Source: Methylocystis sp. L43 (GTDB lineage: Bacteria; Pseudomonadota; Alphaproteobacteria; Rhizobiales; Beijerinckiaceae). From it: 64,000 bases of DNA. The position numbers were made by a program, and so were the translations under genes. Shown piece by piece: positions 26,798 to 27,773 of the stretch; position 1 is the stretch's first letter; every line of letters begins with the position of its first letter. The notes under the pieces are model-generated. The model made no database searches, was not told the DNA's origin, and saw nothing but the letters and a program-made list of their open reading frames with translations. The DNA is taken from NCBI RefSeq assembly GCF_015709525.1, contig NZ_JADNRA010000026.1, forward strand, positions 1-64,000. Reading direction: 5' to 3'.

Positions 26798-26987
26798 TTA
26801 AGAAGAGCCTAGGGGGAGGGTTGTGGGAGGTTCAACGCTTTTCGAGCGCGGCGGGCGCCCGGTGACGCATGCGGAGGGTTGTTCAAATGCGCCAGTTTTC
26901 GCCCTGGAGCCAGTCCCTTTTTCGGCTTTGCCGCCGCTTCGTCTCCATGGGCCAAAAACGCTCGACACAAGGGCAGCTTGGCGCGCG

Positions 26988-27002
26988 TTAACCTTAAATT
27001 AA
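26988..27002 (+). promoter_or_regulatory. CtrA-binding box (full consensus)
   Basis: TTAA-CCTTAAA-TTAA matches the CtrA consensus TTAA-N7-TTAA without mismatch. TATCAT at 27007-27012 is a plausible -10, so the box would cover the -35, the usual place for CtrA activation. The predicted transcript starts near 27019. Confidence 0.75.
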
Positions 27003-27018
27003 CGATTATCATGCAGCC

Positions 27019-27122
27019 TGAATGTGTCCCTAGGTGGGACCTTCGAGTGGCTTCTTCTCCACTCGTCCTTGATGCCTCCCTGTCAAGAAGCCTTGAGAGC
27101 CGCCGTTGCGGCTCTCTTTTTG
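27019..27122 (+). ncRNA. Putative CtrA-controlled small RNA with four hairpins
   Basis: Four consecutive hairpins are visible: GTCCC/GGGAC (27026-27040), CGAGTGG/CCACTCG (27044-27065), CTTGA/TCAAG (27068-27087) with the loop TGCCTCCCTG, and the terminator GAGAGCCGC/GCGGCTCTC (27095-27116) followed by TTTTTT. The CCUCCC loop is complementary to Shine-Dalgarno sequences, as in known alphaproteobacterial trans-acting sRNAs. No reading frame of note exists here. The 5' end is inferred from the -10; it could instead be an attenuated leader of rcdA. Confidence 0.65.
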
Positions 27123-27149: not shown

Positions 27150-27164
27150 TTAAAGAAAGGCTAA
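27150..27164 (+). promoter_or_regulatory. Second CtrA-like site before rcdA
   Basis: TTAA-AGAAAGG-CTAA differs from the CtrA consensus by one base. It lies after the small-RNA terminator and just before rcdA, so it could control rcdA directly. Confidence 0.5.
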
Positions 27165-27197: not shown

Positions 27198-27773
27198 ATG
27201 CCATCAGAGACGCAACCGCGTCGCATTTGCGTGAACGTTCGTATGGCTCGAGTCAAAGGCAGCGTGGGGGAGAAGCAGCCGGTCTCTTTCATCGAGAGAC
27301 TGGCGGGATCGGAGGGCTTTTGCGCTCTGTTTCGCGAGGGAATGAGCCTCGTGGAGGAGGCGGCCTGCTATCTCGACGGCGACGGACGTCTCGACGCGAA
27401 ATCGCTGCCACGGACCGAAGCTCTCGCCTATGCGGCTGAAAGCATGCGGCTGACCACGAGATTGATGCAGATTGCGTCCTGGCTGTTGCTGCAGCGCGCG
27501 GTGAACCAGGGAGAGCTGACGCGCCATCAGGCGGCGAGCAATCGGCATCGCGTCAAGCTTCGCGAGCAGGAACTCGCTTCCGCCCCCGAACTCTTCCAGC
27601 GCCTGCCGCTCCGCCTGCGCGAGTTGTCGCTGCAGTCTCTGCGCCTGCAGGCGCGGATCATCCACCTTGACCGGCTGATACATGCGCTCGAGCCGGCCCT
27701 TGCCGCGCCGGCGCCGCTGTCAAGTCCGGTCGAAGCCCAGATCGCGAGACTGCGCGCCGCTTTCGCCCAGTGA
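27198..27773 (+). CDS. rcdA: RcdA-like regulator of CtrA degradation (DUF1465)
   Basis: A 191-residue helical protein. The segment SFIERLAGSEGFCALFREGMSLVEEAACYLDGDGR is the DUF1465/RcdA signature, followed by AYAAESMRLTTRLMQIASWLLLQRAV. In Caulobacter, RcdA is an adaptor that, after CpdR primes ClpXP, delivers substrates including (with PopA and c-di-GMP) CtrA. The first ATG is 27198; 27243 is also possible and would leave a longer leader; neither has a clear ribosome site. A CtrA-like site precedes it, fitting the known CtrA control of rcdA. cpdR is encoded 1.4 kb downstream. Confidence 0.88.
   Translation: MPSETQPRRICVNVRMARVKGSVGEKQPVSFIERLAGSEGFCALFREGMSLVEEAACYLDGDGRLDAKSLPRTEALAYAAESMRLTTRLMQIASWLLLQRAVNQGELTRHQAASNRHRVKLREQELASAPELFQRLPLRLRELSLQSLRLQARIIHLDRLIHALEPALAAPAPLSSPVEAQIARLRAAFAQ

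Follow-up and report, generated by a model that had tools for sequence, protein, structure and literature searches.

A BjrC1505 family small RNA gene with a conserved CtrA box upstream of rcdA in Methylocystis sp. L43

The locus between the IMPase gene and rcdA of Methylocystis sp. L43 is a new member of the known, little-studied small RNA (sRNA) family BjrC1505 (RF02356), with the structure, CtrA box and terminator that the family conserves, and with the neighbour, rcdA, that it has in most of the order. From our comparative analyses, we consider it probable that this single-copy gene encodes an sRNA which has its own CtrA-box promoter and terminator, is most likely activated by CtrA, and lowers the translation of mRNAs. 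The sRNA is presumably transcribed in Methylocystis sp. L43 from its own promoter, where the CtrA box would lie close to its -35 region, and the activator of the gene is most likely phosphorylated CtrA. The transcript would end at its own terminator before rcdA, the conserved loop GCCUCCCU of the RNA of about 100 nt would pair with ribosome-binding sites, and the translation of a set of mRNAs would be lowered when CtrA is active. The original prediction had proposed a CtrA-activated sRNA with an anti-Shine-Dalgarno loop; a terminated, covarying RNA with a conserved box and loop was found here, whereas its transcription in this organism, its activation, rather than repression, by CtrA and the blocking of ribosome-binding sites by the loop are the parts that we infer.

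Anatomy and family assignment of the locus

Within the window, by which we mean the whole 64-kb stretch of DNA analysed, RF02356 was the only Rfam family to reach its cut-off, and it did so marginally (50.5 bits against 50). The match is full-length over model positions 1-140 (26978-27121, forward strand) and is the single one in the genome. The locus thus resembles BjrC1505 in sequence and structure over the full model, in layout, and in having rcdA as its neighbour, as most of the order loci read do; it differs in its low score. BjrC1505 is reportedly a Bradyrhizobium sRNA, credited to Madhugiri et al. in 2012. The Rfam output gives no function for it, and mentions neither a CtrA box, nor a link with rcdA, nor a spread beyond the order. 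The RF02356 model takes promoter DNA, including the CtrA box, as RNA and draws base pairs there (26978-27020 in the window), so that the first 40 or so positions of the match are promoter DNA and the remainder is the sRNA. Because the model contains these promoter positions, we built a promoter-free model, R2, for the RNA body alone, from 50 sequences of our choice and with the structure supplied from one of them, L007. R2 placed the sRNA body at 27021-27121 of the forward strand with 63.1 bits, a score obtained with the window's own sequence in the training set.

The perfect TTAA-N7-TTAA box of the original prediction was confirmed by a motif scan at 26988-27002 (forward strand), and is kept in relatives. 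It is the single exact occurrence in the window, where 0.04 are expected, and exact matches were present in four of 100 shuffles. The genome also contains a gene that we take, from its sequence ends, to be that of a CtrA-like response regulator. Downstream of the box, on the same strand, folding gave hairpin 1 (GUCCC/GGGAC, 27026-27040), hairpin 2 (CGAGUGG/CCACUCG, 27044-27065) and hairpin 3 (27068-27087), in which the anti-Shine-Dalgarno loop GCCUCCCU (27074-27081) is closed by CUUGAU/GUCAAG; a hairpin exposing CCUCCC had indeed been foreseen. An intrinsic terminator follows (27095-27121, forward strand), with a 9-bp stem (27095-27116), a 4-nt loop and TTTTT. The predicted arrangement of packed hairpins ending in a terminator before rcdA therefore held: the fold of 27019-27122 has an energy of -41.9 kcal/mol against -26.8 in shuffles (sd 3.3, z -4.57), and none of the 200 shuffles was as stable. 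A second CtrA-like box, TTAAAGAAAGGCTAA, with one mismatch (27150-27164, forward strand), is a candidate promoter element of rcdA (DUF1465, PF07323, E 2.5e-52), which occupies 27198-27773 of the same strand with a start at about 27198, a later ATG being possible.

The proposed -10 element, TATCAT (27007-27012, forward strand), is doubtful. It starts 5 bases past the box and is not conserved: the sister species G545 has box and hairpin 3 letter-for-letter identical, without TATCAT, and in relatives the best -10-like hexamer lies 12-13, not 5, bases past the box. Between the two RNA-bearing species of the genus, no conserved -10 can be made out, so the true -10 is uncertain here. We place the start site at about 27018-27024, a position that is uncertain in this genus.

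Distribution, structure and promoter in relatives

Of 150 order genomes, 128 had an RF02356 match, which exceeded the cut-off in 108, and 134 had an R2 match, which in one (G091) represents the mmgR family. In a sample of the family Beijerinckiaceae, 27 of 60 genomes exceeded the RF02356 cut-off and 47 matched at E≤1, many weakly. In a class-wide sample of 387 genomes, RF02356 was found in 45, of which 19 passed the cut-off and 40 belonged to other orders; the RNA together with the box thus also occurs in other alphaproteobacterial orders. The corresponding R2 tally, 111 of 387, overstates the spread because some of its matches are mmgR (RF00519). Among 14 control genomes, that of Caulobacter vibrioides gave no RF02356 match at E≤1, and three others gave chance matches at that threshold.

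Several candidates were set aside. Generic CCUCCC matches were rejected as members of BjrC1505. An Rfam scan of 19 loci assigned seven that R2 had picked to mmgR. At the class level, the RF02356 match L123, at a sub-threshold E of 2.5e-4, overlaps a tRNA-Lys gene, and L124 and L125 look like chance in our own reading; weak RF02356 matches need checking, as L123 illustrates. Among other variants of the locus, G039 and G133 have a degenerate copy with an exact box still upstream of rcdA. Three loci of one family of the order (L318-L320, in G047, G081 and G111) have a diverged sRNA with the loop ACACCTCCCTATT or similar and an exact CtrA box. In other orders, R2 found two copies about 200 bp apart in G464 and three in G325; the four of these that were checked (including L110, L112 and L113) each have an exact CtrA box.

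Covariation in relatives, which the sRNA hypothesis predicted, was found. In 101 R2-aligned matches, the window's row included, 95.3% of 2384 cells were paired and 21 of 24 pairs had changed on both sides. Two-sided changes were seen in 205 cells, whereas shuffles gave 32 and slid partners no more than 52; the alignment was fitted to the structure of the model, which favours such a result. Helices 1 and 2 changed on both sides in 6/6 pairs each, and helix 4, the terminator, in 6/7, with 99.0% of its cells paired. Hairpin 3 was the least variable and was paired in 89.1% of cells. RNAalifold, applied to a 50-row MAFFT alignment, recovered the terminator only, because hairpins 1 and 2 were misaligned there. 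The loop sequence CCTCCCT was present in 84 of 91 order loci and in 32 of 38 loci from other orders, and the 14-mer GACGCCTCCCTGTT was identical in 62 and 24 of these, respectively; the invariant loop columns of the 50-row alignment, which is without several loop variants, overstate this conservation.

The 91 order loci were drawn from 131 RF02356 matches and comprise the window's own, the 30 best and 60 chosen to widen the sample. The loop served as anchor, by which 85 of them could be placed. In the interval 60-120 nt before the loop, a TTAA-N7-TTAA box with no more than one mismatch was present in 82 of the 85 (8.8 expected) and was exact in 34 (0.7 expected); of the six order loci lacking the anchor, a looser scan found a box in five and none in L085. 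For the other orders, 32 of the 38 loci could be placed, with a box in 29 (4.8 expected) that was exact in 16 (0.4 expected). Since the RF02356 model itself covers the CtrA box, we also made a promoter-blind check, using a pattern of the loop and the start of the terminator only, on 81 named loci whose titles include Bosea thiooxidans, Hyphomicrobium zavarzinii and Sneathiella chinensis. The box was present in 79 of 81 matches (80 loci; 8.4 expected) and exact in 52 (0.76 expected), counts that are inflated by relatedness, as 29 of the 81 named titles are Bosea or Boseaceae, and that overlap with the genome sample in 9 of the 81 named contigs. The remaining named locus, L284, has an exact box.

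The seven inner bases of the box differ widely among loci, and the spacing between box and hairpins is variable. Of 78 order loci, 48 have their best -10-like hexamer at 12-13 bases past the box, with ties broken towards 13; independently of ties, T stands at +12 in 46/78 and A at +13 in 50/78. Such a spacing would put the box over the -35 region. Six order genomes were recognised by R2 and missed by RF02356: an exact box is present in four of them (G039, G047, G081 and G111) and no box in G019, and the sixth is the mmgR genome G091. R2 further added 20 weak loci at the class level, eight with a box within 80 nt and twelve without, six of the latter being mmgR. No CtrA box was seen near the seven RF00519 mmgR loci picked up by R2; the box is therefore not general to anti-Shine-Dalgarno sRNAs. 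The CtrA-box promoter logic of BjrC1505 is well supported by these counts, and the link to CtrA seems to be common to the whole family.

The rcdA neighbour and competing readings

Same-strand rcdA was found downstream in 84 of the 91 order loci, within 451 nt in 83 and at 1122 nt in one; it was on the opposite strand in none, and seven loci had no rcdA within the stretch read. The spacer between sRNA and rcdA measures 44-250 nt in 80 order loci. In other orders rcdA follows in 18 of 38 loci. For the 81 promoter-blind matches, rcdA was within 500 nt in 56, elsewhere in one and unseen in 20, and four stretches were too short. The comparison suggests that CtrA usually controls the BjrC1505 family and that rcdA, which helps to destroy CtrA, is often its neighbour. 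In Caulobacter, RcdA is described as one adaptor for CtrA proteolysis (PMC8959179, in the part available).

This arrangement could also mean that the box drives rcdA itself, with the hairpins as a leader or attenuator, a leaky terminator, and rcdA expressed by read-through from the CtrA promoter. The constancy of the same-strand order (84/91, 80 of them with 44-250 nt spacers) exceeds what a trans-acting RNA would need, and a second box is missing from most spacers across the order, being found in 21 of 81 (3.6 expected). Nevertheless, we consider this reading unlikely. The terminator, with the pairing and two-sided changes of helix 4 given above, is among the most conserved parts, and rcdA has a CtrA-like box of its own in this genus: elements like the TTAAAGAAAGGCTAA box stand before rcdA in both other species of the genus that were examined. 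One of them, G583, keeps rcdA and the CtrA-like element and has no RF02356 match at E≤1, which suggests loss of the sRNA; the RNA is therefore dispensable in this one of three species of the genus. In addition, 19 of the 20 promoter-blind matches with no rcdA seen nearby have a CtrA box, with the proviso that a divergent RcdA could be missed. In Sinorhizobium meliloti, ChIP-seq found CtrA upstream of rcdA, whereas CtrA depletion left rcdA unchanged (PMC4433202, in the portion available). The conserved terminator and the separate CtrA-like box thus weaken the case for an rcdA leader; rcdA appears to be served here by a CtrA-linked element of its own, with the sRNA as a separate unit, while read-through may contribute to rcdA expression in most of the order.

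Granted a separate sRNA, CtrA might repress it, so that the RNA would appear only once CtrA has been cleared. CtrA can act either way, activating or repressing, and the box, which lies inside the promoter region, marks a possible binding site and carries no sign of the effect. However, a box over the -35 region is the spacing typical of activation, and the hexamer at 12-13 bases in 48 of 78 relatives places the box there. By analogy only, the level of CcnA, whose CtrA box is at -23, fell in a ctrA-ts strain and rose in mutants of rcdA, cpdR and popA, according to the sections of PMC8959179 available. We therefore hold repression to be quite improbable. Highly improbable, in our estimate, is that the binding partner of the conserved loop is a protein and not mRNAs, with the RNA acting as a sponge or scaffold. 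The degree of GACGCCTCCCTGTT identity in the order and beyond it exceeds what a generic anti-Shine-Dalgarno function would need, and no target stood out in our pairing and complement searches; against this, the loop is an anti-Shine-Dalgarno sequence like those of AbcR1/2 and NfeR1, which base-pair (PMC8844928, as far as its available text goes).

For the BjrC1505 family, the box in nearly every placeable copy and the usual adjacency to rcdA in the order provide a candidate regulator and a timing hypothesis. In the literature searched, in which the founding description was not covered, we found no link of BjrC1505 to CtrA, rcdA or the cell cycle; the family is named in a list within a Herbaspirillum study. 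Relative to the Rfam output, the new comparative results are the CtrA box, the link to rcdA and the occurrence in other orders. A start-site study of S. meliloti describes a CtrA motif ahead of an rcdA start site, and assigns start sites up to 300 nt in front of a gene to the putative mRNA starts (PMC3616915, in its available part); such classing could hide a BjrC1505 sRNA in that species, if present there. An sRNA promoter, if present in S. meliloti, would also explain the binding of CtrA upstream of an unaffected rcdA (PMC4433202). On a wider view, to which we give even chances, much of the Alphaproteobacteria would have in BjrC1505 an ancient branch of their CtrA circuit, an anti-Shine-Dalgarno sRNA that is switched on by CtrA beside rcdA and reshapes translation, and the ChIP signal at the rhizobial rcdA promoter would mainly be that of the sRNA. 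From the reported ranges of GspR and CcnA, BjrC1505 would be a more widespread CtrA-linked sRNA than either.

Comparison with known sRNAs and pairing of the loop

The original prediction had likened the RNA to CcnA of Caulobacter crescentus and to rhizobial cell-cycle sRNAs, a kinship that was not borne out, as the locus belongs to RF02356, which found nothing in C. vibrioides. CcnA shares the CtrA box in its promoter and a C-rich loop thought to pair near ribosome-binding sites; it differs in being 182 nt long, in its position at the replication origin and in its loop CCCC, as given in the accessible part of PMC8959179, whereas the sRNA of Methylocystis sp. L43 is about 100 nt long and lies between the IMPase gene and rcdA. 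Identity with CcnA was rejected because RF02356 had no match in the C. vibrioides genome even at E≤1, a one-way comparison in which the CcnA sequence did not serve as query. The available excerpts on S. meliloti likewise report that no clear CcnA homologue was found there. EcpR1 (SmelC291) is also a conserved, cell-cycle-linked sRNA of the Rhizobiales (PMC4414408). However, from the available parts of PMC4414408 and PMC12403871, it sits downstream of divK-pleD or next to rpmG, has two stem-loops and is under stringent-response control. We rejected EcpR1 identity on the different neighbours and folding, and kinship with it did not hold up either. EcpR1 has been reported in the methanotroph Methylosinus sporium 5, whose transcriptome paper lists EcpR1 and ar45 as non-coding units and names a TTAA-N7-TTAA motif; BjrC1505 is not mentioned in its main text (PMC12403871). 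GspR, described in the available excerpts as 143 nt long and limited to Sinorhizobium, was rejected for its length and distribution, the present RNA being about 100 nt long and order-wide.

Other sRNAs share the loop type. AbcR1/2 and NfeR1 of rhizobia have anti-Shine-Dalgarno motifs and likely act in a common mode with the RNA studied here; they belong to other families, neither of which has an Rfam match in the window. In the portion of PMC8844928 available, both are said to repress translation at ribosome-binding sites, AbcR1/2 being controlled by LsrB and RpoH1 and NfeR1 being stress-induced. The loop of the BjrC1505 RNA may block ribosome-binding sites as theirs do. A CCUCCC-type loop before a GC-rich terminator is likewise present in mmgR/suhB (RF00519) and SorY (RF02651). 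The former was cross-matched by R2 and differs in having no CtrA box at the seven loci read, and SorY identity was rejected on a score of 19.1 against a cut-off of 111.

Target prediction with the loop gave a divided outcome: the CCUCCC loop is conserved, but no target stands out. Within a region reaching from 150 nt upstream to 30 nt into the coding sequence, 158 of 200 shuffles paired as well with the 5' region of ctrA, and 45 of 200 with that of gcrA, the latter gene being assigned by Pfam and the former by our own reading of the sequence ends. Because these pairings are no better than shuffles, they lend no support to the CcnA circuit in this genome. The complement of the seed, ACAGGGAGG, was not enriched genome-wide (25 matches, as compared with 22 for the reversed pattern). 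Fourteen of the 25 carry the more extended repeat GGGACAGGGAGGGG, and the sRNA's own locus accounts for another; three of the other 10 (L297, L302 and L308) lie 5-6 nt ahead of ORFs with 97, 192 and 253 codons, and the repeat copies L303 and L307 also precede ORFs, these fractions being raw counts without a control. The genome of Methylocystis sp. L43 contains an interspersed, mostly palindromic repeat around GCGGGGGAGGGACAGGGAGGGGGC that includes the seed complement, with copies at L292, L293, L295, L298, L303, L307, L311, L313, L315 and L316.
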